The translations under genes and the position numbers were made by a program. Source: Rhodovulum sp. MB263 (GTDB lineage: Bacteria > Pseudomonadota > Alphaproteobacteria > Rhodobacterales > Rhodobacteraceae). Taken from it: DNA of 64,000 nucleotides. Shown one piece after another: positions 1 through 33,591 of the stretch (within the stretch, counting starts at the first letter, position 1; every line of letters starts with the position of its first letter). Under the pieces are notes generated by a model. The model had not been told where the DNA came from. It was given only the letters and a program-made list of their open reading frames with translations, and searched no databases. The stretch is from assembly GCF_002073975.1 (NCBI RefSeq), contig NZ_CP020384.1:868001-932000 (forward strand), written 5' to 3'.

Positions 1-749
1 GTGAGCGAGACCTGCAGGTCGACATCGCCATAGGCATCGGTCGAACCCTGCCAGAGCCGCGCGTCGGGCGGCGTCCACATCGCCGTGCCGGAGGGCTGCC
101 AGAACAGATCCTCGGCCTCCGAGATCAGGAGCTCGATATCGGTGATCAGCCGCACCGGCTGGACCCTGCCCAGATCGATCCGGCCCGCGAAGGCGTAGAT
201 CGCGCGGGTCTGGCCCGGGGCCATCGCCAGCACGCCCCCCGCCGCGCGGCAGCCCTCGGCCGCCCCCGCGAAGTCCGGGGCCTCGGCCAGGGTGACGACG
301 GTCGTGGTCGGGATGATCGAGGCGGCACGGATCGCGATCCCCGAGACCGGGCCGGGCGTGCCCATCGCGTCATGGGCGCGCGCGAGATAGGTGCCGGATT
401 TGAGCGGCAGGGTCGCCTCGGTCACGCCGCCCGAGACCGCCTTGCCGATCCCGGTCGAGCTCTGCCAGGTCGCGCCCGAGAGCGCGCCCGCATGGCGGAA
501 CTCGATCCGGCCGCCCTGGCGCACGTCGAGCGAGGGATGCCGGTCCCAGCGCAGCATGGCGACGGCACCACCCGAGGCCTGCACCGAGAGCCCGGTGATC
601 GCGCCCGGCGGGGCGTTCTCGCCCTGCACCGCCGTCGCGCCCGCCCAGGCCCAGTCCGACCAGATGCCGCGCGCATTCCGGCCCCGCGCGCCGAAGGCAT
701 AGGGGCCCGGCGCGACATCGTCGATCATGTCCTCGGGGCTGTCGGTCAC
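1..749 (-). pseudogene. Fragment of a phage tail-tip (host-specificity J-like) protein
   Basis: An open minus-strand frame runs from a junction near 749 to the left edge, so its 5' part is missing and its 3' end lies outside the window. The translation has fibronectin-III-like strands of tail-tip proteins: PGPYAFGARGRNARG, then PPGAITGLSVQASGG, then HPSLDVRQGGRIEFRH. This order is familiar from lambda-J-like baseplate proteins of Rhodobacteraceae phages. An in-frame TAA lies just upstream (756-758) and no ATG precedes the conserved part, so I read a truncated remnant rather than an expressed gene. The family call is from pattern recognition only. Confidence 0.6.
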
Positions 750-5042: not shown

Positions 5043-5453
5043 ATGAAATTGCTCACCACGCTAATCCTGTTCGCCTCAGCTGGCCCCGTCTACGCAGACA
5101 CGGCCACGCCTTTACTTTCCGCCAGCTCTGCCCGAACAGATCGCTACGGCTGCACGGTCAGACAGCGCCCGGATGGAATGACCTACAGCGGATTCCGCGA
5201 TGCATGGCGCAATACCGCCGCAGATGACCTCTATTCCCTGCAAAGACACCAGGCGGCGCTAGAGGCGGGCTCATGTGAATGCGATGCACTCTGGCCTGAC
5301 TGGTCCAGCATCGAAGAGGAATTCGAGGCGCTTGGCTTCGCTGATCCGCAGGCAACGGACAGCCTTCATGTCACCTGGGCTGCCGCCGAGTATTTCCCTG
5401 TCATTTCGAACCTTCGCGCGGCACTGCGGGAACAATGTCAGGAGGCTGATTGA
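5043..5453 (+). CDS. Small exported protein next to virB6-like remnant
   Basis: A 136-residue protein with a clear N-terminal signal peptide (MKLLTTLILFASAGPVYA, cleavage likely after AYA-like VYA). The mature part contains a few Cys residues (YGCTVRQ, CECDALW, a terminal EQCQ) that could form disulfides. The family is not recognised. Its TGA overlaps the ATG of the following virB6-like gene, so it is probably one of the small periplasmic proteins found between VirB5 and VirB6 in conjugative type IV secretion clusters. An RBS-like GGAGG lies just before the start. Confidence 0.5.
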   Translation: MKLLTTLILFASAGPVYADTATPLLSASSARTDRYGCTVRQRPDGMTYSGFRDAWRNTAADDLYSLQRHQAALEAGSCECDALWPDWSSIEEEFEALGFADPQATDSLHVTWAAAEYFPVISNLRAALREQCQEAD

Positions 5454-6195
5454 TGGGGATCGTTACATTCATCGTAGAGGCAGCCGACAAGGGCCTCGAT
5501 GCCGTCGCAACTTCGCAGTTCGCCGCCGTAGCAGAGGTTTCCGGCACGATCATCATGGGGGCCGCGACCGTTGCGATCATCGCGCTCTTCATCAACATGG
5601 CATGGCAAATTCGCCCATGGACGGGCGAGAGATGCTGGTGCTGCTCTTCAAAATCAGCTTGATCAAGGCATTTGCGCTTAACTGGGCGAACTTCAACTTT
5701 GTCAGTGAACACCTAATCGACGGATTGGACGAGCTTGCTGGGAGCCTAATTGGCTCCGCCACAGGTGAGGAGGCCATTGGCTCGGCCTATTTCGCCGCAC
5801 GGTTTGATCTCCAAATGGACCGGCTAGCGGAGTACGGCAACGAAGCCGCCTCGCATATGTCCAGAGTTAGCAAAGCGTTGATGGGTGTCTTCTTCATGGC
5901 CCTAATTGCTTTGGTCGGCGGGTTGGCAGGAGCGGTCTTGGTACTCGCGAAAATGATGATAACGCTGCTAATCGGATTGGCGCCGGTCATGATCCTCTGT
6001 TCGATGTTCGACGTGACGAAAGACTACTTCCACCGTTGGGTATCCTCGCTGGCGAGTTTCTCCCTTTACCCGGTCGTGATCGCCGGAGTGTTTTCGATGG
6101 TCTTCGGCTTGGTAACGCTACTGGTCAGTGACCTTGGAGCCATAAACACCGCAGACAAAGCCGGAGAGATGGTCCCGTTTTTAGGCGTGGTGTGA
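5453..6195 (+). pseudogene. VirB6/TrbL-like conjugation membrane protein, frameshifted and truncated
   Basis: VirB6/TrbL proteins are polytopic inner-membrane subunits of type IV secretion channels. The first ~50 residues (MGIVTFIVEAADKGLDAV, then a hydrophobic AATVAIIALFINMAW helix) are in one frame. The rest (MDGREMLVLLFKISLIKAF, then AALMGVFFMALIALVGG-like helices and LAPVMILCSMFDVTKDYF) is in the next frame. Reading through requires one extra base near 5613-5616, consistent with loss of one C from a C-run. The 3' end is cut at 6191 by the IS3-family element, whose first bases supply the stop codon. The rest of the gene is not found beyond the IS. Confidence 0.7.
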
Positions 6196-6231
6196 GCTAC
6201 TCCCCATCGGTTGGACAGTATCTGGCGTAAT

Positions 6232-7083
6232 TTAAGCTACTCTTTGCACCTGCTGATCGGGTTTGTTGATATCATTTCTCTGCCAATAAACCAGCGCCGG
6301 TGGCTTGCCGCCGAGGGCTGAGTGAGGACGCTGGTGGTTGTAGAAGGTCATCCATTTCCGGATAGCCCCTTTCGTCTCTGATCCGGTCTCCCAGGCATGC
6401 AGGTAGACGCATTCGTATTTCAGGGTTCGCCACAGCCGCTCGATGAAGATGTTGTCGAGGAATCGGCCTTTCCCATCCATCGAGATGCGCACACCGGATC
6501 GGCGGAGCCGGTCGGTCCAGGCGCAGGACGTGAACTGGCTGCCCTGATCCGTGTTCATGATCTCGGGCGGGCCGAACTTGTGGATGGCCTCGCTCAGTGC
6601 TTCGACGCAGAAGTCGGCCTCCAGGGTGTTCGAGATCCGCCAGGATAGAACCTTGCGCGTGTGCCAGTCCATGATCGCTATGAGGTATAGGAACCCGCGG
6701 CGCATGGGCAGGTAGGTGATGTCCGAGCACCAGACCTGGTTCGGACGATCCACGTGCAGCCCTTTCAGAAGGTAAGGATAGGTCTTGTGTCCTTTCGCCG
6801 GCCTGCTCGTGTTGGGCTTCTGGTAAATCGGCATCAGCCCCATGAGGCGCATTAGCCGGCGTATTCGCTTCTCGTTCACGAGATGCCCGTCATTGCGCAG
6901 GTGCCAGGTCATCTGGCGGACACCGAAGAACGGCGTCTCCAGGAACTGCTCGTCGATCTGCCGCATCAGGCCGAGGTTCTGTGCGGTCTCTCCCTTCGGC
7001 TCGTAGTAATAGGACGAGCGCGCAATCGACAGCAGCCTGCACTGCTGACCGATGGACAGCTGAGGATGGTCAGGCTCGATCAT
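6232..7083 (-). CDS. IS3-family transposase OrfB (DDE integrase domain)
   Basis: The catalytic part of the transposase. It has an N-terminal HTH_21-type region (SIGQQCRLLSIARSSYYYEP), then the rve integrase core with the first Asp in WCSDITYLP, the second in NTDQGSQFTS and the Glu in DNIFIERLWRTLKYE, so the DDE triad is complete. The first ATG gives 283 residues, but the open frame extends upstream into orfA. In IS3 elements the active product is an OrfAB fusion made by -1 slippage, here probably at the run of six T (read on the minus strand) near 7118-7127. Confidence 0.88.
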   Translation of the reverse strand: MIEPDHPQLSIGQQCRLLSIARSSYYYEPKGETAQNLGLMRQIDEQFLETPFFGVRQMTWHLRNDGHLVNEKRIRRLMRLMGLMPIYQKPNTSRPAKGHKTYPYLLKGLHVDRPNQVWCSDITYLPMRRGFLYLIAIMDWHTRKVLSWRISNTLEADFCVEALSEAIHKFGPPEIMNTDQGSQFTSCAWTDRLRRSGVRISMDGKGRFLDNIFIERLWRTLKYECVYLHAWETGSETKGAIRKWMTFYNHQRPHSALGGKPPALVYWQRNDINKPDQQVQRVA

Positions 7084-7091
7084 ACCGCGCC

Positions 7092-7385
7092 TCACTTCCC
7101 GCCCCAGGGCTTCAGCTTTCGTTCCAAAAAAGAGTTGGCCACCGCCAGCTCCCCGATCTTGGCGTGGAGCTCCTTCACCTGCTCCTCGTCGATCTCGGGT
7201 CTCTTGCGGCCACCGCGCTCGAACACGCCGGACGCGCCTTCGAGCAGGGCGCGCTTCCATTGATGGATCATCGTCGGATGCACTCCGAACCGGCTCGCCA
7301 GCTCGGCCGCCGTCTCTTCACCCTTCAGGGCTTCCAGCGCGACCTTCGCCTTGAACTCAGGCGCGTGCTGCTTGCGTTTCGACAT
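7092..7385 (-). CDS. IS3-family transposase OrfA (helix-turn-helix)
   Basis: A 97-residue DNA-binding protein with the HTH_Tnp_1 pattern (EFKAKVALEALKGEETAAEL, then FGVHPTMIHQWKRALLEGA) followed by a leucine-zipper-like segment near ELHAKIGELAVANSFLERKL. It binds the terminal inverted repeats and is the N-terminal part of the OrfAB transposase. The frame is intact. Confidence 0.88.
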   Translation of the reverse strand: MSKRKQHAPEFKAKVALEALKGEETAAELASRFGVHPTMIHQWKRALLEGASGVFERGGRKRPEIDEEQVKELHAKIGELAVANSFLERKLKPWGGK

Positions 7386-7621
7386 CTCTGATCTCCTTCT
7401 CGTCGAAGATCAGCAGACTGCAAATCGTAGCTTACGTCACTGTCCGAATTTCGGGGGGTAGCTCACATCCGTCCAGCCGGTGGTGGCGATGAAAAATGTG
7501 CTCCGACAGGCCTCAAGGTAAGAATTTTTCGGCGACCTGCTCCCTAGACCTTCGAAAGGAAGCCTGACACAACAGAAGTGTACGCAACACATCTGAGTAG
7601 CTCTTATGAAAGGAGGCGCTG

Positions 7622-8089
7622 TTGTCAGAGGAAAGCCCAGAATCCCTTGCAGGGAAAATTAAAGAAATCGTCCAGGAGGCTTGGGCTGCTGAGGCGAAAC
7701 CAGTCTTGTTGAGCAATCTTGGAATGGAGCTCAGGAGAAATGGAGTTGATTACAAGTCCATCACGTCTGGAAAAAGCCTGAGCGCTTTCATTTCTGAGCG
7801 GGATAATGAATTCAAGGTGGTTCAGCACCCGAAAGAGACACTAAAGTTGGGAGTCATTCCCGCGGGTGAAGATTTTGAATTCAAGGTGGACGCTGGAGAA
7901 GAAAAGGATGGCGTCGAGGTCGAAGCTGAGGCCGGTCCGATTTCGAGGCATGCCAAGAACGCTCACGTGGCTGAAAGTCGCCGAGCCCTATATGCGTTCA
8001 TTCACCAGCTTTCAAAGCTTCCAGCCTCTGAGAGAGATGGTGTCAATATCCCAGTAAATGTTCTGATTCGACTTATGGAAGGCAAATGA
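7622..8089 (+). CDS. LOTUS/OST-HTH-like winged-helix protein
   Basis: A 155-residue protein starting at TTG behind a strong ribosome-binding site (AAAGGAGG, 5 bases upstream). Residues ~25-80 (VLLSNLGMELRRNGVDYKSI, then GKSLSAFI, then FKVVQHPKETLKLGVIP) follow the OST-HTH/LOTUS pattern: a winged helix whose last strand ends in a hydrophobic Pro turn. That domain binds RNA, including G-quadruplex RNA in some proteins, and in bacteria is often fused to NYN nucleases. An acidic linker and a helical C-terminus follow. GC content is far below the core genes, suggesting transfer. The stop overlaps the next start (ATGA), so the two are co-translated. The LOTUS assignment is by eye. Confidence 0.5.
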   Translation: MSEESPESLAGKIKEIVQEAWAAEAKPVLLSNLGMELRRNGVDYKSITSGKSLSAFISERDNEFKVVQHPKETLKLGVIPAGEDFEFKVDAGEEKDGVEVEAEAGPISRHAKNAHVAESRRALYAFIHQLSKLPASERDGVNIPVNVLIRLMEGK

Positions 8090-8919
8090 AGGCGGCAATC
8101 GTTGTTGGAACAAATGATCCTGAAATTCAAAATTATTTTGATGATCGTCAGGAGGCTGCAATTCCGAAAGCCTATCGCGAAGGCAGCGGCCTTGCCTTTA
8201 GCTCGTTGAAGGTGTTTCGGTTCGACCCTCACAACAAGGATGGCCTATCATATCGTGAGTATGTCGTAAGGGTGTCTCAGAGATATGATGCGGTCGCTTG
8301 TGTCGTTGGTGTTGACGTATATGATTGGGTCGATGGCTGTGAAAATCTCTTCTTCACAACCTTTTTCAACTTCCCTGGATGGCAACCAAACTATCAAAAC
8401 TTCTTTTCCAAGCACTTCAGCTCTTGGCTGAAAAACTTCTCTGAAATTGCTAAGGCTGGCGGGAGCCAAAAGCAGAGAACTATGCTTCTTCTTCCGGTTA
8501 CTGCCTTTGATGCCGACGAGCTTAGAGCACTGCCGAGATTGCTGAAAGACCACGCGACTGAAGGCCGGTTCATTCGAATTCTTCAATCTTACTTTGCCAG
8601 CGTAGGAGGACGTCAAACGCCGAAGAGAAAGGGGGGCGGGGATGCAACAAAGTTCTATGTTGATGATCGTCGTCACTTCTTTCAGCTGGGCCTGGAAGAA
8701 CATGCTGAAGCGGGGGAGCTTCCACCCCATGATTTCTTCTGTCGCGCTGGGAAGTTTATAAGATTTGGGATTTCAATTAAAGATAAGCGACACTTCAATG
8801 TTACGGAAGAGAAGCCAAAAGATCGCATCCATATCAGACTTAAGAACTGTCATGGCCAAGAGGATGACTATGGCCCAAAGACACATTTGAACATATTTCC
8901 AAATGGCCACATAGAATAA
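8086..8919 (+). CDS. Unknown protein paired with LOTUS-like gene
   Basis: A 277-residue soluble protein, translationally coupled to the gene before it. I do not recognise the family. It begins with a hydrophobic strand (MKAAIVVGTNDPEI) of a Rossmann-like kind, has an aromatic-rich middle (ENLFFTTFFNFPGWQPNYQN), a second strand MLLLPVTAFDADEL, a basic Gly-rich loop (TPKRKGGGDATKFYVDD) and a C-terminal KTHLNIFPNGHIE. Several conserved-looking His/Asp residues might be catalytic but no known nuclease motif is visible. Low GC and a terminator directly after the stop mark the end of a two-gene unit. A nucleic-acid or defence role is only an inference from its partner and location. Confidence 0.5.
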   Translation: MKAAIVVGTNDPEIQNYFDDRQEAAIPKAYREGSGLAFSSLKVFRFDPHNKDGLSYREYVVRVSQRYDAVACVVGVDVYDWVDGCENLFFTTFFNFPGWQPNYQNFFSKHFSSWLKNFSEIAKAGGSQKQRTMLLLPVTAFDADELRALPRLLKDHATEGRFIRILQSYFASVGGRQTPKRKGGGDATKFYVDDRRHFFQLGLEEHAEAGELPPHDFFCRAGKFIRFGISIKDKRHFNVTEEKPKDRIHIRLKNCHGQEDDYGPKTHLNIFPNGHIE

Positions 8920-8958
8920 GGGTGGCGAAGGTTGCCCTTCGTCCACCCTTCTTTGTTC
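8920..8958 (+). terminator. Rho-independent terminator of the two-gene cassette
   Basis: GGGTGG-CGAAGG pairs with CCTTCG-TCCACCC across a TTGC loop with one bulged base, followed by TTCTTTGTT. It begins just after the stop codon of the second gene. Confidence 0.75.
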
Positions 8959-9340: not shown

Positions 9341-9384
9341 TGGAGGCGAGTACCGGAATCGAACCGGTGTACACGGATTTGCAA
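9341..9384 (-). repeat. Left attachment site: 3' end of a tRNA-Cys gene (variant)
   Basis: Read on the minus strand this is the 3' end of tRNA-Cys from the anticodon loop to CCA, matching the intact gene at 33518-33591 except in the T-arm. There the stem is ACCGG/CCGGT instead of AGGAG/CTCCT, with both sides changed together. It marks the left boundary of element A and comes from a slightly different tRNA-Cys allele. Confidence 0.8.
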
Positions 9385-9579: not shown

Positions 9580-10293
9580 CTACCCGATTTCACGGACCTT
9601 CTCGACGCCAGCCGGGCCGACCTTGGTGAGGTAGAAAGGCTGCGCCTGGGCGAGGAAAGCGAAGTGTTCCAGCGCGGGCACCCGGCGGATGTTCTCTACC
9701 CGGCGCATCGGGCTCTCGACGCCGACCAGCGCGAGGGCAGGGAAGAAGCCGTAGCATTCGCCGAGATCGATCGGGCCGTGCATAGCAATGCAGCGGGCGA
9801 GCATCTCCTGGCCTGCATAGTCGAGGAAGTCGAAGTCGTCCGGGCGCACCATGACTGCGCTGCGAGCAATGAGGTTTGGGTCGGGAGGGGATGCAGGTTT
9901 TGGTCGTTGAAGTGGCGGTCCAAACTGTGTCGGAGCAAGCTCCTGTGAGCTAATGCGGCCCTCGGCTAGAGAAATGCGGAATGTCTTCAATCTGTCGGAC
10001 CAGACAAGAAGATCGCCAAATGGATTGTAGGAAACAACGGTACAATCATCGTGTCTGAGGTCGGGGTCAGACTTGAAGACGAGGGCAAGGACCGGGGCGA
10101 GAGTGTAAGGCTTGGCAATAGTCACTCCACCCTGCTGAAAAGTCGCATAACCCAACTCTTCCATGAAGCGGATCAGGCGGGGTGGCAGACGGCCTTCGCA
10201 ATAGGCCAGCTCCGCTTCAGGCATGGGTTCGCGTGCGGTCGGTTCTCCAAGCTTCTCGGCGCGAGCGCGGTAGTTCTTCTCAATATCGGCCAT
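9580..10293 (-). CDS. GAD-like/DUF1851 immunity-type protein
   Basis: A 237-residue soluble protein with two parts. The N-terminal ~110 residues (EAELAYCEGRLPPRLIRFM, then VTIAKPYTLAPVL, then YNPFGDLLVWSD) match the GAD-like domain. The C-terminal part (DFLDYAGQEMLARCIAMHGP, then ECYGFFPALALVG, then LEHFAFLAQAQPFYL) matches DUF1851/Tdi1-type T6SS immunity domains. Proteins of this architecture neutralise type VI or other polymorphic toxins. No cognate toxin lies next to it: a broken IS3 transposase is on one side and the attachment repeat on the other. It may be an orphan immunity gene left after loss of its toxin. Confidence 0.7.
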   Translation of the reverse strand: MADIEKNYRARAEKLGEPTAREPMPEAELAYCEGRLPPRLIRFMEELGYATFQQGGVTIAKPYTLAPVLALVFKSDPDLRHDDCTVVSYNPFGDLLVWSDRLKTFRISLAEGRISSQELAPTQFGPPLQRPKPASPPDPNLIARSAVMVRPDDFDFLDYAGQEMLARCIAMHGPIDLGECYGFFPALALVGVESPMRRVENIRRVPALEHFAFLAQAQPFYLTKVGPAGVEKVREIG

Positions 10294-10362
10294 CTACCGG
10301 CACCTTTCCAGATTCACGTTCATCCGTCGATCAGCTAAACCGTCCTGTCGCATAGTCCTTGG

Positions 10363-10567
10363 GAGAACGGCTACTGCGAGAGCTTCAACTCGAAGCTCAG
10401 GGACGGTGATCGTATACGATCACCTAAACGGCGAGATCTTCTACTCGCTGGCCGAGGCACGCGTGGTGATCGAGGCGTGGCGGGTCCATTACAACACCGC
10501 GCGGCCTCACTCGTCCCTGGGCTATCGGCCACCAGCGCCGGAGGCCGTTCACTGGGCACCGTTTTGA
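10363..10567 (+). pseudogene. IS3-family OrfB C-terminal remnant
   Basis: The translation ENGYCESFNSKLRD, then after a frame change LNGEIFYSLAEARVVIEAW and YNTARPHSSLGYRPPAPEAV, is the end of an IS3-family transposase containing the catalytic Glu (ENGYCESF). A 20-base perfect palindrome replaces a few codons between the two parts and breaks the frame. The following ~90 bases (GGACCACCCGATAGGGGCAGACCA) resemble an IS end. Confidence 0.75.
10405..10424. repeat. 20-bp perfect palindrome inside IS remnant
   Basis: GGTGATCGTATACGATCACC is its own reverse complement over all 20 bases. It sits exactly at the point where the transposase remnant loses its frame and is not part of the usual gene. Confidence 0.9.
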
Positions 10568-11125
10568 GCTCCGGGATCAGCCCCGCCGCATGCATCTACC
10601 TTGGCACCGAGACCCGTCATGCACTAAGACTGAAACCGGACCACCCGATAGGGGCAGACCACTGTGTCTCTCTATTAGCATGTGACTATGGTTCATAGGA
10701 TGAGTAATCGAAGATGTTCATAAGCCCATGCCAATGCCTATACATCAAAGACGGTCGCTGCTGCCCCTTTGCGGCCTGTTAGGGAGGTCGGCATTCGTCT
10801 GCAGGCTGATGAACAGAAAAGATGGGCTCGGAGCGGACCTGCGGCAGCGCAGCATGACTCCTGAGCACCTGGCGCCATCGACTCGGGCGCTCCCTGCCGA
10901 TTGCCGACGTTGGACACCTCAAGCCCGCGCCGCCCGTAGATCACGGAAGCGGCCGTTCATCGCGGTTGCAGCACGCGCAGGAGCCGCAAAGGTCTGGAGA
11001 GCGGACAAAGCCGCCGTTCGCCGCGAGTGCTCGATTTATGGCGCGGCTGCGAGAGTGCCGGAAGGATCGGCGGGAAGTGTGAATTCGCCGCGGCAACGCG
11101 ATGGTTCGTTCTATGCCAGAAAGGC
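10568..11125. other. Gene-poor spacer with decayed sequence
   Basis: About 560 bases between the IS remnant and the next gene. Reading frames are Arg-rich and unconvincing. It contains the first copy of a 91-bp degenerate direct repeat (10822-10912) that recurs near 11.9 kb. Confidence 0.5.
10822..10912 (+). repeat. Degenerate 91-bp direct repeat, copy 1
   Basis: Starts ATGGGCTCGG and ends CGACGTTG. It aligns without gaps to 11860-11950, with roughly 14 differences counted by eye. The shared core includes GACTCGGGCG and TCCCTGCCGAT. It is non-coding as far as I can tell. Confidence 0.75.
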
Positions 11126-11611
11126 TCAAGTAGGTCTTAGCGCCAAGACTAAGCTTATGAAGCCAAGGAAAGTTGAGACCATTGCAAGATATGCGGGCAC
11201 CCGGATAAGTGGGTCCGGCACTGTTAGATACCAACGGAGAATGCCCAAGAATACGCACTTCTTAACCTCTATCTCCACCTCTTGCCCTAAATCGACTCCC
11301 AGTGTTTTTCGGAGATCGTAATCTAACCTGATGATATTCTCTCGATCATTATGACCAACGACGGCGGCATACGCGCAACGACCTCGTGGAGCTGTCAACC
11401 GGACTATTTGGAAGCGCTTTGTTCCGTCACGCTTCTTGCCGTTGATAAGCGCGCGACCCTGACCCGTATGCTTCTCGGGGCACTTCTGTACCGTAAATGA
11501 GTGGGTGTTCGCGCGGTCCAAAATAATACCTGGGAAATTGTCGAGCAAACCGATAGCCGCTTCTTTTACGCTGAGTATCAGCGTTGCACTGTAATCTTTG
11601 TTTTGCAACAT
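11126..11611 (-). CDS. Hypothetical membrane-anchored protein with beta-barrel-like domain
   Basis: A 161-residue protein starting at the ATG of MLQNKDYSATLILSV (11611). Residues ~35-125 form a beta-rich region (KKRDGTKRFQIVRLTAP, then LDYDLRKTLGVDLGQEVEIEV) resembling a double-psi barrel of the AbrB/Cdc48-N kind, where 'LGV..G..V.V' is common. The C-terminus is one hydrophobic helix (AYLAMVSTFLGFISLVLAL), so the barrel would sit on the cytoplasmic face of the membrane. I do not know the family. It stands alone on the minus strand, between two copies of a degenerate repeat, with lower GC than the phage genes around it. Confidence 0.45.
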   Translation of the reverse strand: MLQNKDYSATLILSVKEAAIGLLDNFPGIILDRANTHSFTVQKCPEKHTGQGRALINGKKRDGTKRFQIVRLTAPRGRCAYAAVVGHNDRENIIRLDYDLRKTLGVDLGQEVEIEVKKCVFLGILRWYLTVPDPLIRVPAYLAMVSTFLGFISLVLALRPT

Positions 11612-12371
11612 ACTTCGCTCATTTCGAAAGGTCCGCGCTGCCATGACACTGACCTTGGCCGTCCGCTGCGCTTCGTACGAAGGTCGGCTCCTGGGTTGGA
11701 ACGGACATCTGCAGTGCCTGTCACGAAGGTCGGCTCACGGCCGACTTTACCAACATCTTCTCGCTGCAACCGCAAAATGCCGCAACTGCTCGCTCGGTGA
11801 AATTGGGCTGTGAGCGGACGAATGCACCCGCAGCGAAGGCTCCGCTGGGGTGCGGCAGTATGGGCTCGGATTGGACCTGCGGCGGCGCAGCATGGCGCCG
11901 GAGCGCCTGGCGCCACCGACTCGGGCGGTCCCTGCCGATAGCCGCCGTTGAGCGCCACGCTGCCAACACCGTTGACGAAACACGGAAGTGGACATCCGCC
12001 TGGCCCATAGAACAGCTCTCAATCGGCGATGAAGGCGGGTCTTCGTTGCGGGTGCTGTTGAAAAGTTCGCTTGCGGGGCCGCTGAGCACCAGTTCATGGG
12101 ACATCGCTTCGCTTTTCTGCGATCCCGGCTCTTAACGGACCCAGCCTCCTCTGCAAAGAACGACGTTCCAAACTCGGGCGGCCTCTCAGCCGCTGCCGGA
12201 GTTTTTCAAAACAATCAGCCGAGAGCGGTCGCTGGTGCCCGGTGCGGCGAAAGCCAGCCTTGGGGAGCCTTGAGCAAACGCACGCGCCGGGCAGAGCATT
12301 CACCGGCGAAACACTTTGGCTGCCGGACGCGCCTAGTGCGGCAATGACCAAAAGTAGCGCGAACACGCGGT
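11612..12371. other. Gene-poor spacer
   Basis: About 760 bases with no gene I can support. It holds copy 2 of the 91-bp repeat and short repeated words such as ACGAAGGTCGGCTC. Sequence of this type is common between decayed insertions in Rhodobacteraceae genomes. Confidence 0.5.
11860..11950 (+). repeat. Degenerate 91-bp direct repeat, copy 2
   Basis: Same orientation and length as the copy at 10822-10912. It lies about 1 kb away, on the other side of the small membrane-anchored protein gene, so the two copies flank that gene. Confidence 0.75.
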
Positions 12372-13777
12372 CTAACTTTCCTTCGTGGAGCCATCGTTAT
12401 TGTAAACGGTGCGCCGGCTTGCCCCCTCATGCGGCTGCAGCGGGAAAAATGGCCCCGATGGGGTCCAGCTCGCTGAGTGATGAACGTAGTTGCGACGATA
12501 CTGAATACTTTCAGCGGGTGTTATGATCTCACCAGAAAGTAGACGATCCTTCAAATATTCCAGCACCTCGTCATTCTCAGGAAGGTCATAATTGCGCCCA
12601 GAGATCAAGGCTGTGAATGGAACGCCCGCGTCAATGGCCTTCCGGAACATGACATGAAGTGCGACGTGGGATAGGCCAGGATCTTTAATCCATTTGCGCT
12701 TTAGAAACCAGCGGTTCCAGTAGGGATCGTACCGGTTGGAGCCAATGGTTTCGTACTCCCGTGTCAATGCATTGTGGTCTGATTTATTTATCCAGCCATC
12801 AGAAACTAGCTGATTGAATATAGCCAAGTCTTCTGCCGTGAAATCACTGTAGCCAAACACTCGTCCTGTCTCGGCCGGCCGCGGGTTGAAGTTATCAAAT
12901 TGTGACCGAGCGCGCTTTACCTCTACGCATTCCTCATAGAATTCTGGGTAGCCGCCTCCAATATCAGAATGGGCCCCCGGCATGCGAATTGTTTCGGCGC
13001 TGTTGGGAGCTTCGGTGAGTGGGAAGTTTTCTCGAAATTCATCCAGTGCTGTTATGTGAACAATCTTGGTCGCTATATCGTCGGGCAACGTGATCCTGAG
13101 ATTGCCCCAGCTGCTATCGTTCGCAACAAGCCCCCAAGAAACAACCGTATCAAATATGCCTAGAAAACGGATCTCCAGTTTTGACTTATCTTCCTCTTGA
13201 AGTTCATAAAATGGGCCGCCGTATCCGTGACCAGCATGGCCACGCTTGACGCAATTTAAAAAATGCCTCGCCGCAGCCGCACCCCGACTAAAGCCAAAAA
13301 CATCAACCTTAATTGATTTTATTGCTCCTGAAGACTTAGCCTTATTCAGATGCCTTAGAAAGACTAGGAAAGCATCTTTGACACGCTCTTCCACACCTGA
13401 GCGCCCCCATCCGAGGGCGAAGCCAATGGTGCTGTCATCCTGCCCTGCCGTGGTGCCGATGCCGTCAAAAATTTCTGAAAATCGACGTATTTTAGCCCCA
13501 TCAGTGTTATTTTCTGCAGTCTTCGGGACGAAAGAATCATAGCTCCGGTATAGTTTCGCGACATTGCTAAGATCGTTCACATAGCTCGCTTGGCTGACGA
13601 CACCACCCTCAGCGCGTACCCGATTGCCTTCTTCAACATTTGCAAGGTTATTCCCAGTCCCATCGAAAAAAACGCGATTTCCAGATCGATCAAGGGGCAG
13701 CTCGTCGTAACCGCACTGATGGACCCCTTCTGCTGAAGGTCGAAGAAGTCGTCCTTGGGGAATGAGAGATCATCCAT
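12372..13777 (-). pseudogene. Tle1-like type VI phospholipase effector (DUF2235), frameshifted at a T7 run
   Basis: Tle1 proteins are T6SS-delivered phospholipases of the alpha/beta-hydrolase fold. Read on the minus strand, the gene starts MDDLSFPKDDFFDLQQKG and reaches PLIDLEIA. A run of seven T (13666-13672) then shifts the frame, and FDGTGNNLANVEEGNRV continues in the next frame. FDGTGNN is the hallmark of DUF2235. Further on are the nucleophile elbow DVFGFSRGAAAARHF (GxSxG), GIFDTV for the Asp loop, and GAHSDIGGGY for the catalytic His region. Full length would be about 467 residues. It is either inactivated by loss of one T or read by slippage or transcriptional stuttering on the T-run. 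Confidence 0.8.
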
Positions 13778-13789
13778 AGCTCGGCCACC

Positions 13790-14407
13790 TCAATTGCAGT
13801 GTTTTGGGATATCCATTTCAGAGAGGCGATGGGAAAACCACCCTTTAACCTCCGAATTTCCCAGCATGAACTGCATGTTTGATTTTTTCCTTTCGTCAGA
13901 AATTGTATCTTGCTTGCCGCAGCTTTCTGCGAGTTTGATTGCGACTCGAGGCTTGTCGCTCGGTGGATAACTTTCATCATAGGTGACGGCCTGCACCATG
14001 CCATCTGCAGAAATGCGAAAAATCAAAATTCCGAAATCGGATGTGATCGGATCGAGTTTCAGGTCTCTCATATCAACATCCAGTGATGAAGAATATACTT
14101 TCTCGGTCACCACCTCATACCAAGTTATCTTGAAGTGAACATGTGTCGTATCGCGAGCGCTGTTTAATATATTCCTGACAGGCAAACTTGCATCAGCATC
14201 TGTGTAACCCCCATTTTGAACCCATGCCTTTTCCTCATAATCTGCAAAAACCGGACCAAATGACGGAGATTCCACAAAGGCAACCACCGGCCACCCTTCT
14301 TCAGTTTTGAGGTTGTATTTAAAGTTTTGAGTTACACTCTCGGCCTTGCAAGCCGCCACAAAAAACAGGAGGAGGCTAAATGAGGCAAACTTCGCGAATA
14401 TCTTCAT
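13790..14407 (-). CDS. Lipoprotein, probable Tle1 immunity protein (DUF2931-like)
   Basis: A 205-residue protein with a lipoprotein signal (hydrophobic FASFSLLLFFVAAC, lipobox VAAC at residues 17-20). Periplasmic lipoproteins of this size directly beside tle1 genes are the usual immunity factors that block phospholipase in the periplasm. The body is beta-rich (WPVVAFVESPSFGPVFADYE, then HVHFKITWYEVVTEKVYS). I place it near DUF2931, but this is pattern memory rather than a search. The gene lies 12 bases upstream of the effector start and 15 bases downstream of the adaptor gene, all on the minus strand, so one transcript is likely. Confidence 0.65.
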   Translation of the reverse strand: MKIFAKFASFSLLLFFVAACKAESVTQNFKYNLKTEEGWPVVAFVESPSFGPVFADYEEKAWVQNGGYTDADASLPVRNILNSARDTTHVHFKITWYEVVTEKVYSSSLDVDMRDLKLDPITSDFGILIFRISADGMVQAVTYDESYPPSDKPRVAIKLAESCGKQDTISDERKKSNMQFMLGNSEVKGWFSHRLSEMDIPKHCN

Positions 14408-14422
14408 AGAATTTCTCGTGGT

Positions 14423-15466
14423 CTATTGGCCCAAGGCCGATTGAAGCTTCAAGATTCGCAAGTCCTCCGCGACTTGCTTCTGTTCCAAGTCTTTCAGGGC
14501 GCTCACTTTTAGTTTGCGTTCAAAATGAGGGCCTTGGGTCAGCTCATACCAACAAAGCGCGAATATGGAGCCGGTGTTGACGAAGCCGTATTGCGAAAAG
14601 CGTTCAGCAACACGATTGAGCGCGTCTCTTATCTCGAACTCAGTTTTTCCAGGGAGGAGTGTTGCCAAACGACTCTGGATTTTCAAAAAGTTTGCTTGAA
14701 CGCGACGCGCCTTAAGTGTCTCCTTTTCTTCGACCTCCATCCTGAAATTATTGAAAGAAATTCCCGCGAATGGCCCGTTCGGAATGTATTTGGTCGCTCT
14801 TCCGTCTCGCCTGACTATCACATATCCAACAGGATTTTCATTGTCTGTATAAAACCAACCCGTCGCCAGGTCGGCTCGGCGCGAGAGATATGAAAAATGC
14901 ACTTCTGCCACATCGGGCTCCCAAAACCTGAAATAGCTCCAGTTATCGTGCTCATCGCGAACCCGTGTGAACTGCCGAAATAGCCTCAGCATATTTTCTA
15001 TTGTGTCTTTCGACCTAACATAGATGCCGACCTCGTTGCTCCACAGGTCAGTTTTCCTCCCTGTGTCTGTAAAAAGCTTCCGCACGAAATCATTTTCGAT
15101 TTCCAATTTGACTATATATGGAGAAACATCTGCGAGCTCTTGCGCAGCGGTGCCTCGAAACAAGTTCAGATACGTTAACCCACTATTCGCCAACGTGTCG
15201 GGTAAATAAGGTATTTTCGCGGCATCCAGAATGGCAAACGTATGCGTTGACTGTTCTGCGTGCAAAATTTCTTCTGAAGAAAAGAAGTTCTCCCCAAAAA
15301 GGTTGGATGAAATATCTTCAGGTAGGTGTTTTTTCGGCCAAACGCCAAATTGCGCGTCAAGTGCTCTTACCGAAGGAAGGGTTACCTCATGAACCGCCGC
15401 AGAAGAATGACCGTCTCCATTCGGTGAGTTTGCCTCAAGGGCCAGCCAAAAGTCCTCGCTACCCAA
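14423..15466 (-). CDS. DUF4123 T6SS effector adaptor/chaperone (Tap/TEC type)
   Basis: A 347-residue protein whose residues ~70-200 match DUF4123: HTFAILDAAKIPYLPDTL, then LFRGTAAQELADVSPYIVKL, then GIYVRSKDTIENMLRLFRQF, then DNWSYFRFWEPDV. These adaptors load a specific effector onto a VgrG spike. It is the first gene of the adaptor-immunity-effector unit. The frame has no upstream ATG, so TTG at 15466 is the most likely start. The vgrG gene usually found upstream is absent; the DNA instead switches to a phage lysis region within 300 bases. Confidence 0.8.
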   Translation of the reverse strand: MGSEDFWLALEANSPNGDGHSSAAVHEVTLPSVRALDAQFGVWPKKHLPEDISSNLFGENFFSSEEILHAEQSTHTFAILDAAKIPYLPDTLANSGLTYLNLFRGTAAQELADVSPYIVKLEIENDFVRKLFTDTGRKTDLWSNEVGIYVRSKDTIENMLRLFRQFTRVRDEHDNWSYFRFWEPDVAEVHFSYLSRRADLATGWFYTDNENPVGYVIVRRDGRATKYIPNGPFAGISFNNFRMEVEEKETLKARRVQANFLKIQSRLATLLPGKTEFEIRDALNRVAERFSQYGFVNTGSIFALCWYELTQGPHFERKLKVSALKDLEQKQVAEDLRILKLQSALGQ

Positions 15467-22288: not shown

Positions 22289-22498
22289 ATGCTTAAGCCA
22301 AGCCCCATCTTCGCAAGCGAACGCAATGCGGCCCGGCTTCTCGATATGAAGCAGGCCGAGTTTCGTGCGCTGGTGGAGGCGGGGCACCTGCCGCGCGGCC
22401 GTGAGATCGCTCCTGGCCTGATCCGCTGGCCGGTCGAAGACCTCCGCCGCATTGCCAGCGGGGAAGCGGCCGAGGGCATGGGGGACGTGAGTTGGTGA
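22289..22498 (+). CDS. Excisionase-like helix-turn-helix protein
   Basis: A 69-residue protein with an AlpA/Xis-type helix-turn-helix (FASERNAARLLDMKQAEFRA, then EAGHLPRGREIAPGLIRWPV and EDLRRIASGE). Its TGA overlaps the start of the integrase gene, so the pair is co-expressed, as usual for a recombination directionality factor and its integrase. Confidence 0.7.
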   Translation: MLKPSPIFASERNAARLLDMKQAEFRALVEAGHLPRGREIAPGLIRWPVEDLRRIASGEAAEGMGDVSW

Positions 22499-23490
22499 GC
22501 AAGCGCTATCTCTGGCGGCATCCGAGCGGACGCATCTACGTGCGCCTCAGGGGGCGTCTGTGCAGGATCATGGCCCCAGAGGGAACCGCGGAATTCGACC
22601 GGGAGTATTGGGAGATCCTGACCGGGAAGCGGATGCAGGCCAAGACCTCCTGGAACGCCCTTATGGACGATTACCGGACCTCTGACCGCTGGCTGGGGCT
22701 GAAACCCCGCACCCGTCAAGACTATGACAAGGTGATGGCCTACCTCCGGGAGAAGATCGGCACCCGCGACGTGAAGGCGCTGACGCGGGCGGACGTGATC
22801 GCCGCGCAGAAGGCGAACGCGCATCGGACCCGCTTCGCGAACTACATCCCGCAGATGCTGGTGATCCTCTGCGAGCACGCTATCGACCTGGGCTGGCTGG
22901 CGAACAACCCTGCGAAGGGGGTTCGGGCCCTCAAGACCCCCGAGAAACGCCGGAAAGAGCATTTTCCCTGGCCGGATTGGGCGGTAGAGAAATTCCGCTC
23001 GGAAGCCGAAGAACTGCCCCGCCTGATCTTCGAAATCGGCGTCGGCAGCGTTCAGAGGCCGGGGGATTGGGTGGGCTTCCGCTGGGGCGACTACAACGGC
23101 GAGTCCCTGACCCTTTGCCAGAACAAGACCGACAAGTCCCTCGTGCTTCCGTGCACAAACCAGCTCAGGGCGGCTCTGGATCGTGCGAAGGGCGCGCTCG
23201 GCGCGGTGCCCATCGCTGGACGACCGATCCTGATGAAGCGCGACGGCAACCCCGTGAGCTATCGCTACATGGCGCAGATCATGTTGAAGGAGCGGCGCCG
23301 CCTCGGGCTCGAAGCCTACGACCTGCACGCGCTGCGCTATCGCGGGGTGCAGGAACTGGCGCTGCACGGCTGCACCGACGACGAGATCGCGGCCTACAGC
23401 GGACACGCCACGAAAGCGATGATCGAGAAATACGCGGGCGAGGCCCGGCAGATCATGCGGGCGCGTCAGGCTGCGGAAAAGAGACGCTGA
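22495..23490 (+). CDS. Tyrosine integrase of element A
   Basis: A 331-residue phage integrase that catalyses site-specific recombination at the tRNA-Cys 3' end. The N-terminal part (VSKRYLWRHPSGRIYVRLRG) is an arm-binding domain and residues ~50-150 the core-binding domain. Catalytic boxes are the Arg in VQRPGDWVGFRW, HALRYRGVQELA (H-x-x-R), SGHATKAMIEKYAG with the second His and the nucleophilic Tyr. GTG at 22495 overlaps the stop of the excisionase-like gene; a TTG one codon earlier is possible. The stop lies 81 bases before the attachment repeat. Confidence 0.88.
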   Translation: MSKRYLWRHPSGRIYVRLRGRLCRIMAPEGTAEFDREYWEILTGKRMQAKTSWNALMDDYRTSDRWLGLKPRTRQDYDKVMAYLREKIGTRDVKALTRADVIAAQKANAHRTRFANYIPQMLVILCEHAIDLGWLANNPAKGVRALKTPEKRRKEHFPWPDWAVEKFRSEAEELPRLIFEIGVGSVQRPGDWVGFRWGDYNGESLTLCQNKTDKSLVLPCTNQLRAALDRAKGALGAVPIAGRPILMKRDGNPVSYRYMAQIMLKERRRLGLEAYDLHALRYRGVQELALHGCTDDEIAAYSGHATKAMIEKYAGEARQIMRARQAAEKRR

Positions 23491-23571
23491 ACAGAACGAG
23501 ACCAGAACAAGAAACTGATACCCGAGGTGATACCCCAATGAGCAAGCAAGGCACTAACCCATTGAAAGTAT

Positions 23572-23618
23572 TGGAGGCGAGTAGGAGAATCGAACTCCTG
23601 TACACGGATTTGCAATCC
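23572..23618 (-). repeat. Middle attachment site: 47-bp copy of the tRNA-Cys 3' end
   Basis: An exact 47-bp match to 33518-33564, covering the tRNA-Cys 3' end from the anticodon stem to CCA on the minus strand. It is the junction between the two tandem elements. The rest of the tRNA is not present here. Confidence 0.92.
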
Positions 23619-32195: not shown

Positions 32196-32404
32196 CGATG
32201 GAGCGCCGTCCCGCCGCAATCCGAAAATCCGACCTGACACCCGCTTTTGAAGCTGCGAAGGCTGCGGGCTATGATCAGGTTTCCATCGTTGTGGAGACCA
32301 ATGATGGAAAGCGCTTCCTGATTACAGCCGTGGTGGCGGGCGATACCGCTACGCCGGACATGACGCCGCTTGAAAAGTGGAGGGCAGGCCGTGCCGCAAG
32401 CTGA
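32192..32404 (+). CDS. Small phage protein in front of the integrase
   Basis: A 70-residue protein (MERRPAAIRKSDLTPAFEAA, then GYDQVSIVVETNDGKRFLIT). It occupies the place of an excisionase next to the integrase but shows no clear helix-turn-helix. It overlaps the integrase start by 14 bases. GGGGAGG precedes its ATG. Confidence 0.55.
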   Translation: MTMERRPAAIRKSDLTPAFEAAKAAGYDQVSIVVETNDGKRFLITAVVAGDTATPDMTPLEKWRAGRAAS

Positions 32405-33443
32405 CCTGCCCAAAGGCGTGCACCGGGTCCGGCGGAAGCTGGCGAACGGCAAGAGCCGTTTTCACTTCTATGCGTGGCGCGGAGGCCCGAAATTCTGGGA
32501 AGATGAATACTGCAAGCCCCGCGATCCGGCCTTCTATCAGGCTTTCGCGGACGCTGCCGCTCGACCGCAACCGGCCGACTACATGACGCCCAGGATGGTG
32601 GATGACTTCCTGTCCAGCACCGCGATGCCCAAGGGCGAACGGTCGCGGGCCGACATCCGCAAATGGGCGCTGCGCTTTGCCGAGCACTTCAAGGACGCGC
32701 CCGCCGTTATCTTCGAGGAGCGCGGCGCGCGCGGGGAAGTGAATGCCTGGCGGGCACTCTGGAAGCACTCGCCCAAACAGCACGACATGGCGGGCACTCA
32801 TGCTGTCCGCATCCTGAATTGGGCGGTGCAGGAGGGCAAGTTGACCGAGCATCACTGTCACAAGCTGCATCGGCTCTATGATGTGGACCGCTCGGAAATC
32901 GTCTGGACCCAGACCGACCGCGCCGCGTTCAACGCGGTTGCCCCGGAATGGGTGCGCCGCATCCTCTGCGCCGCCTGCGAGACCGGTCTGCGCCCGGCCG
33001 ACCTGATCAAGCTGACCCCGGCCCATGTCGAGCAGACTCCGCTTGGCCGTCGCCTGCGCGTCAGGACGAACAAGCGCAAGCGGCTGGCCCATATCCCGAT
33101 CACGCCCGAGCTGGCCGAAATTATCGACACGACCCCGGCCGGTCGGCTGCTGATCCTGACCAATGCGAGAGGCCATGCCCTCACGCCTCACCGGGCATCC
33201 GAGGGCGTCCGCCAGTGGCGCGACAAGGCGAAGCTGTCCGATGACCTGCGCCTTTACGATGCGCGCGGGACCGCCGCGACGCGGCTGTTGAATGCGGGTC
33301 TCTCGCTCGCGGAGATCGCCAATCACATGGGCTGGTCGGTCCGCTACGCGGCAAACGTGATCGAGCACTATGCCCGCGTCTCCCCCGACGAAACCGATGC
33401 CGTTCTGATCAAACTTGCCCAAGCGAAAAGGGGTGTAGCGTGA
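32391..33443 (+). CDS. Tyrosine integrase of element B
   Basis: A 350-residue integrase that recombines at tRNA-Cys. The N-terminus (GVHRVRRKLANGKSRFHFYA) is an arm-binding domain. Catalytic boxes are the Arg in CETGLRPADLIKL, then LYDARGTAATRLLNAG, where the usual H-x-x-R has Tyr in place of His, then MGWSVRYAANVIEHYARV with Trp in the second His position and the nucleophilic Tyr. GTG at 32391 is chosen because GGAGGG sits 7 bases upstream; a TTG at 32370 is possible. The stop is 74 bases before the tRNA. Confidence 0.87.
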   Translation: MPQADLPKGVHRVRRKLANGKSRFHFYAWRGGPKFWEDEYCKPRDPAFYQAFADAAARPQPADYMTPRMVDDFLSSTAMPKGERSRADIRKWALRFAEHFKDAPAVIFEERGARGEVNAWRALWKHSPKQHDMAGTHAVRILNWAVQEGKLTEHHCHKLHRLYDVDRSEIVWTQTDRAAFNAVAPEWVRRILCAACETGLRPADLIKLTPAHVEQTPLGRRLRVRTNKRKRLAHIPITPELAEIIDTTPAGRLLILTNARGHALTPHRASEGVRQWRDKAKLSDDLRLYDARGTAATRLLNAGLSLAEIANHMGWSVRYAANVIEHYARVSPDETDAVLIKLAQAKRGVA

Positions 33444-33517: not shown

Positions 33518-33564
33518 TGGAGGCGAGTAGGAGAATCGAACTCCTGTACACGGATTTGCAATCC
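33518..33564 (-). repeat. Right attachment site: 47-bp identity with 23572-23618
   Basis: The 3' 47 bases of the tRNA-Cys gene, from the anticodon stem to CCA, are identical to the middle copy and define the crossover segment of element B. Confidence 0.92.
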
Positions 33565-33591
33565 GCTGCGTAACCACTCCGCCAACTCGCC
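33518..33591 (-). tRNA. tRNA-Cys (anticodon GCA)
   Basis: Read on the minus strand, 74 bases form a complete cloverleaf. The acceptor stem GGCGAGT pairs with ACTCGCC, followed by TCCA; the D-arm contains AGTGGTTA; the anticodon stem-loop is GGATTGCAAATCC with GCA in the loop; the T-arm is AGGAGTTCGATTCTCCT. CCA is encoded. It is the integration target of two phage-like elements, whose recombination regenerates its 3' end. Confidence 0.95.

Follow-up and report, generated by a model that had tools for sequence, protein, structure and literature searches.

Two overlapping genes of low GC content in Rhodovulum sp. MB263, here called A and B, are best explained as a horizontally mobile two-gene conflict module whose most likely role is anti-phage or anti-plasmid defence, a reading to which we give about an even chance. 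The two genes are paired and co-inherited, are held under selection, and lie in mobile settings and among defence genes. The first protein has a predicted LOTUS-like fold, and neither protein is represented in the profile libraries that we searched. Defence itself is the function that we infer from this body of evidence.

The window, by which we mean the whole 64-kb stretch of DNA that was analysed, has a GC content of 0.65, and the pair stands out from it at 0.47 as the low-GC cassette that the original prediction had recognized. The features on which the following discussion draws are collected in Table 1. The strong ribosome site and the ATGA overlap that had been read from the letters are both present: AAGGAGG lies five bases 5' of the TTG start of gene A, and the ATG of gene B overlaps the TGA of gene A. 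Of the intrinsic terminator proposed at the 3' end, the hairpin is strong (-25.6 kcal/mol, z = -6.1, with 0 of 200 shuffles as good), but its T tract is interrupted (TTCTTTGTTCTT) and a simple terminator scan left it unflagged.

Table 1. Features of the A-B pair, its two proteins and its immediate surroundings (window positions for DNA, residue numbers for proteins).
Feature	Position	Strand	Description	Basis
TrbL/VirB6-family conjugation gene fragment	5450..6190	+	element backbone; cut by IS	profile match
IS3-type insertion	6191..7467	-	two ORFs	ORFs and terminal inverted repeats TGTGAGCTAC
Shine-Dalgarno of gene A	7610..7616	+	AAGGAGG	sequence
Gene A	7622..8089	+	155 aa, TTG start	sequence
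Gene B	8086..8919	+	277 aa, ATG start	sequence
3' hairpin	8919..8949	+	probable intrinsic terminator, imperfect T tract	folding
tRNA-Cys 3'-end copy	9341..9384	-	attachment-site remnant	sequence repeat
Protein A, winged helix	~6-84		LOTUS-like	model and alignments
Protein A, linker	92-108		low confidence	model and alignments
Protein A, C-terminal helices	109-153		conserved	model and alignments
Protein B, N-terminal domain	~1-100		Rossmann-like	model and alignment
Protein B, helical part	103-174		LP..NF motif	model and alignment
Protein B, C-terminal domain	177-277			model and alignment
Protein B, C-terminal residues	H206, H215, C219, R226, H236, C255, H256, H267, N269			alignment

The pair lies, as had been proposed, between a broken conjugation gene and an attachment site. 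The TrbL/VirB6 fragment to its left is interrupted by the IS3-type element, which has matching 10-bp ends at 6191 and 7458-7467, and to its right is the copy of the tRNA-Cys 3' end. A further copy lies at 23568-23615 and the tRNA itself at 33518-33591, and these two are adjoined by ORFs with phage-integrase domains at 22492-23490 and 32370-33443. Three tandem tRNA-Cys 3' ends with integrase ORFs amount to tandem integrative elements at one tRNA gene, and since the third copy (9341) is without an integrase of its own, the left element is probably a remnant. Beyond that copy, type VI secretion-like cargo occupies 9580-15466 and includes a Tdi1/GAD-like immunity gene (9580-10293), a Tle1-like phospholipase domain (12372-13580) and a DUF4123 protein (14423-15466). 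An ORF of 172 aa at 11126-11644 matches the CDC48 N-terminal domain (E 3e-10), which is unusual for a short bacterial ORF, and a protein of 191 aa at 15762-16337 matches the C-terminal (HNH) domain of GmrSD.

Several lines of evidence indicate that the two genes are maintained together. Gene A precedes gene B in 22 of the 22 loci measured, mostly in Pseudomonadota, with gaps of -4 to +14 nt, and at every one of these loci the GC content of the pair is lower than that of its surroundings. The description of a self-contained two-gene unit is borne out by this constancy. Co-occurrence of the homologues, on which the original prediction had staked itself, was found in every complete case: among relatives on plasmids, viral contigs, genome contigs and whole genomes, gene A lies directly upstream of every complete B. 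The Aeromonas A used as query returned 12 plasmids, all of which also carry B, and the Ruegeria A returned six of those 12 together with one chance match (E = 1). Matches in G350 and in Sphingobium that might have passed for orphan genes are both fragments and were rejected as such, and profile matches in G500 and G402 that are limited to the middle of B were left out of the counts. Evolutionary distances among A proteins follow those among B proteins closely (Mantel r = 0.85 across 19 lineages, a value reached by 0 of 5000 permutations). Purifying selection acts on both genes, with dN/dS of 0.08-0.33 in the informative close pairs; the E. coli/E. albertii pair is near-identical and thus uninformative for this ratio.

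The same organization could be that of a type II-like toxin-antitoxin system serving mainly plasmid or element retention, in which B would be the toxin and A the antitoxin, the winged helix of A repressing the shared promoter and its C-terminal helices blocking B. Two adjacent genes kept as one operon at such short gaps, with a small first gene overlapping a larger second, are consistent with it, as is the looser constraint on gene A than on gene B in most close pairs. This is the main rival to defence and a close one, and the mechanisms overlap, because many defence systems are themselves toxin-antitoxin-like. Taking all of the evidence together, we consider a toxin-antitoxin role possible, if on the unlikely side.

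The distribution of the pair is sporadic and points to horizontal transfer across differing mobile and defence contexts. It is present in one of 296 genomes of the host's family (single-protein query), and profile searches returned 3-4 of ~390 genomes each, some of the matches being partial. A single-sequence genome scan for B gave no match, and an alignment query was required to find its relatives. The carriers include small plasmids of Acinetobacter, mobilizable or non-mobilizable, ColE-type plasmids of Klebsiella (4.6 and 8.3 kb), IncF plasmids of E. coli and E. albertii, IncF-type plasmids of Enterobacter, Klebsiella and E. coli, and plasmids of Komagataeibacter and Aeromonas; five complete E. 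coli genomes have an intact pair, plasmid-borne in all. On viral contigs the pair sits among structural-type genes, in G1180 it adjoins a tyrosine integrase, and in Brucella, Granulicella, Pseudomonas and Prodigiosinella it is found on chromosomes or large contigs. Two records call for care as to their source. The Synechocystis B12 plasmid record CP101710 contains an unannotated pair (L018:3938-5306) whose closest relatives come from Proteobacteria, which makes a chimeric or contaminated record possible, and a contig of a 'Sporosarcina' MAG (L026:1642-2883) has a pair near-identical to the E. coli plasmid version and is probably a misbinned enterobacterial plasmid.

Frequent residence on small plasmids and integrating elements would suit a toxin-antitoxin pair as well. 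A roster of carriers that includes phage-like contigs, integrating elements and very small mobilizable plasmids would also be expected of a counter-defence or maintenance module, one that protects its plasmid or phage against the systems of the host or adjusts copy number. We regard such a module as improbable: the pair has no fixed position beside replication or transfer genes, and it also occurs between chromosomal defence genes, in Brucella and in G934.

The neighbourhoods of the pair suggest defence as the role of the module. Named defence, restriction or TIR genes adjoin the pair in 6 of ~19 lineages, a raw count without a matched background. In G934 the genes for HmaA, HmaB and HmaC (E = 0 each) lie directly upstream on the same strand, Hma itself being a defence candidate put forward by the authors of PADLOC (PMC8565338). 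HmaC ends ~150 nt short of the start of A as placed by homology, and an overlap of the two is not claimed, since that start lies ~150 nt downstream of the first call. In Brucella a PDC-S06 gene (PrrC-related) ends ~200 nt upstream of the pair and a PDC-S37/Hhe gene starts ~400 nt downstream, and on the IncF-type plasmids of Enterobacter, Klebsiella and E. coli a complete Gabija system (GajA E=0, GajB E=1e-251) lies beyond one IS110. The Ruegeria pair has a type IIG restriction-methylase neighbour, the G1073 pair a type III restriction neighbour, and in A. baumannii a ThsB-like TIR protein is encoded 153 nt upstream. The TIR gene was rejected as a fixed third component, being missing beside the A. 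haemolyticus pair, and PLD- and MBL-like neighbours in Pseudomonas phages, for which the PADLOC evidence is weak, were left uncounted. About two thirds of the lineages are without an obvious defence neighbour (for example Granulicella, Komagataeibacter, Aeromonas and Prodigiosinella). Plain addiction pairs would not be expected beside named defence operons, which argues against the toxin-antitoxin alternative, while the BrnTA and VapBC toxin-antitoxin genes adjoining some loci argue for it.

The slot that the pair occupies in its own element is also consistent with defence cargo. In G088, a genome of the same family as the host, a 15.3-kb element is bounded by tRNA-Cys and a repeat of the 3' end of that gene, and contains by the tRNA an ORF placed as an integrase would be, a mobilisation-type gene, and a TrbL 72% identical to that of the window. 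After TrbL, where the window has the A-B pair, this element carries a Mod-type DNA methyltransferase locus. The methyltransferase has PDB matches to adenine-specific Mod subunits including EcoP15I Mod; the locus also holds a DUF3800-like ORF, read by eye, and a large ORF adjoining the Mod gene gave no PDB match. The common slot after TrbL means that the pair of the window occupies the site where a relative carries restriction-like cargo. In Ruegeria, a mobilisation region that shares 70% identity with the one in G088 is found ~5 kb from the pair. The original suggestion of an anti-phage system in a position typical of defence cargo thus finds partial support in the neighbourhoods and the cargo slot.

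AlphaFold models of both proteins were built from 11-row alignments. The model of A (mean pLDDT 80) has helices at residues 6-24, 30-39, 44-47 (short), 53-59, 109-131 and 145-153, with wing strands at 64-68 and 76-80 and an insert at 40-52 between helices 2 and 3. A winged helix with such an insert is what defines the LOTUS fold, and the model of A has both. Re-alignment to 967 PDB chains puts LOTUS domains in each of the first nine rows (TDRD5, TDRD7, Egalitarian and Tejas; Z 8.4-9.3), followed by the Oskar LOTUS domain and African swine fever virus I73R in rows 10-15 (Z 7.9-8.3); the first 14 rows (Z 8.1-9.3) are LOTUS apart from two I73R entries. Other winged helices reach Z <=7.8, so the margin of LOTUS over generic domains is modest (~1.5 Z) and the ordering consistent. 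At the sequence level, PF12872 gave no match to the window A, to 11 members or to the consensus at E up to 1-10. Comparison with 32 bacterial OST-HTH sequences by hhalign brings helix 2, insert and helix 3 into register (LLSNLG...GKSLSAFI with SLSAIG...GFRKLSDLV), at a profile-profile score that is not significant, 13 of 200 column-shuffled profiles being as good. With respect to the Ghxph motif of the OST-HTH insert (PMC2848206), most members of the A family have Gly and then Leu/Ile about three residues on (SGKSL, NGERL, GKETL), without the hydrophobic residue right after the Gly. Structure prediction, by which the LOTUS assignment was to stand or fall, therefore returned a LOTUS-like fold with LOTUS domains as the nearest PDB chains, whereas a match to the OST-HTH profile and a significant profile-profile score were not obtained. 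Since the link in sequence to OST-HTH is unproven, we call A LOTUS-like on the strength of its predicted fold and not proven LOTUS by sequence. It may bind nucleic acid, and perhaps RNA; RNA targeting by the pair, as first suggested, is likewise conjectural.

The winged helix, the insert between helices 2 and 3 and the two-strand wing are common to A and the bacterial OST-HTH/LOTUS domains. The bacterial proteins (PF12872, in combinations of LK-nuclease or DUF88/NYN with OST-HTH) differ from A in the sequence match that A lacks, and A, at 155 aa, has no fused NYN/DUF88 nuclease, its partner B being separate, mobile and strictly paired. Almost all bacterial OST-HTH domains are fused to DUF88-type nuclease domains, and their gene neighbourhoods show no conserved association with systems of RNA processing, CRISPR among them (PMC2848206). 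A stand-alone A in strict partnership with a second family does not conform to that picture. Elsewhere the Rhodovulum sp. MB263 genome does encode a canonical PF12872 protein. In layout A follows the usual plan of an antitoxin, its winged helix at the N-terminus being joined through a disordered linker to conserved helices at the C-terminus, but its wing fold ranks nearest to LOTUS and not to repressor wHTH domains.

Protein B is modelled with a mean pLDDT of 86 and a pTM of 0.84. In an alignment of 21 B sequences, which diverge down to 17-30% identity to the B of the window, P137 of the LP..NF motif, F199, H206, R226, H236 and N269 do not vary; H215, C219 and C255 occur in 20 of the 21, and H256 and H267 in 18. 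This conserved set looks like an active site together with a probable metal site, the latter partly lost in G1073 and G677, and because these two lose part of the His/Cys set the metal site cannot be universal. Catalysis by the C-terminal domain of B would be a guess from conservation. G1073 represents a divergent branch: its A (L090:7970-8701) reaches 243 aa and has a long insertion that separates the LOTUS-like part from the C-terminal helices, and the partner B is without part of the His/Cys set. The B of G677 (L088:8832-10019) lacks the usual Cys pattern, and of its A the C-terminal part alone was found upstream.

The claim that the second protein matches nothing known held for Pfam, PADLOC, NCBIfam, PHROGs and PDB sequences. 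A, B and the family consensus have no match in Pfam (2025), B having none to NYN, PIN or DUF88, and none in PADLOC-DB 2.0 (2023), where stray matches of one or two members reach E 0.0026-0.013; a match to MkoB (E 0.0026, two members) was dropped because the consensus gives none. B has no significant match in NCBIfam (2026) or PHROGs and no sequence relative in the PDB (best E 0.065, a chance value), nor does its C-terminal profile, and Foldseek with the B model returned nothing under E 0.03 in the PDB or under 0.09 in viral models. With nothing worth counting in Pfam, NCBIfam, PHROGs or PADLOC for members or consensus, B was rejected as a known enzyme. Over residues 1 to ~125, B can be aligned with Argonaute MID domains and with receiver-type Rossmann domains at Z 6.5-7.8, values typical of a common alpha/beta arrangement. 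We rejected an Argonaute MID or receiver identity for B and claim no kinship: the signatures of receivers and of PIWI are both missing from B, and its C-terminal domain is different. A profile comparison of A with B was negative, and the two were rejected as mutual relatives. Six protein accessions of the pair are not mentioned in the open-access texts searched, and a literature search for LOTUS with phage gave nothing.

These properties of B bear on two of the alternatives. At ~275 aa and with two or three domains it is large for a type II toxin. Its receiver-like N-terminus, together with the winged helix of A and the closeness of generic wHTH domains to LOTUS in the structural ranking, would be compatible with a two-gene transcriptional or post-transcriptional regulator, a wHTH protein with a ligand-binding Rossmann partner and no conflict role. 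Of the explanations considered this is the least probable, given the sporadic distribution (~1% of genomes or fewer), the mobile settings, the defence neighbours, and the invariant polar residues in the C-terminal domain of B, which are typical of active sites.

For the preferred reading, defence, a working mechanism can be outlined. The LOTUS-like winged helix of A would bind nucleic acid, while its conserved C-terminal helices would hold B. As the effector, B would act through its C-terminal domain, which with its invariant H206, R226, H236 and N269 is likely catalytic and perhaps a nuclease; the near-invariant His/Cys set could hold a metal, and the Rossmann-like N-terminal domain may serve in regulation or ligand binding. 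A would sense or localise, and B would act: on invasion the binding partner of A would be altered, and B would in consequence be released or directed. A more specific proposal is in our view doubtful. It holds that the pair is a new immune system whose LOTUS protein, split off and standing alone, would recognise RNA of the invader and guide a nuclease of a new His/Arg/Asn class.

Compact overlap, low GC content, patchy spread and defence company are common to the A-B pair and to the two-gene defence and toxin-antitoxin cassettes of plasmids and prophages. The pair differs from those cassettes in that its proteins and their consensus match no model in PADLOC-DB 2.0 or Pfam. It is a mobile two-gene conflict cassette composed of a LOTUS-like protein and a new effector family, set apart by comparison with PADLOC 2023, Pfam 2025 and, for B, NCBIfam 2026 and PHROGs. 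The LOTUS fold is known mainly from animal germ granules and stand-alone bacterial RNases. If the function is defence, the pair would be a compact two-gene system that fits on a 4.6-kb plasmid and employs an unnamed effector family whose C-terminal domain is still unassigned, and the LOTUS fold would gain a concrete, testable bacterial role as sensor or adaptor. The natural plasmid versions in E. coli and Klebsiella make for easy testing in laboratory strains. Should the doubtful RNA-recognising LOTUS reading prove true, a fold that belongs to the piRNA machinery of the animal germline, LOTUS, would also have a part in the immunity of bacteria against viruses.
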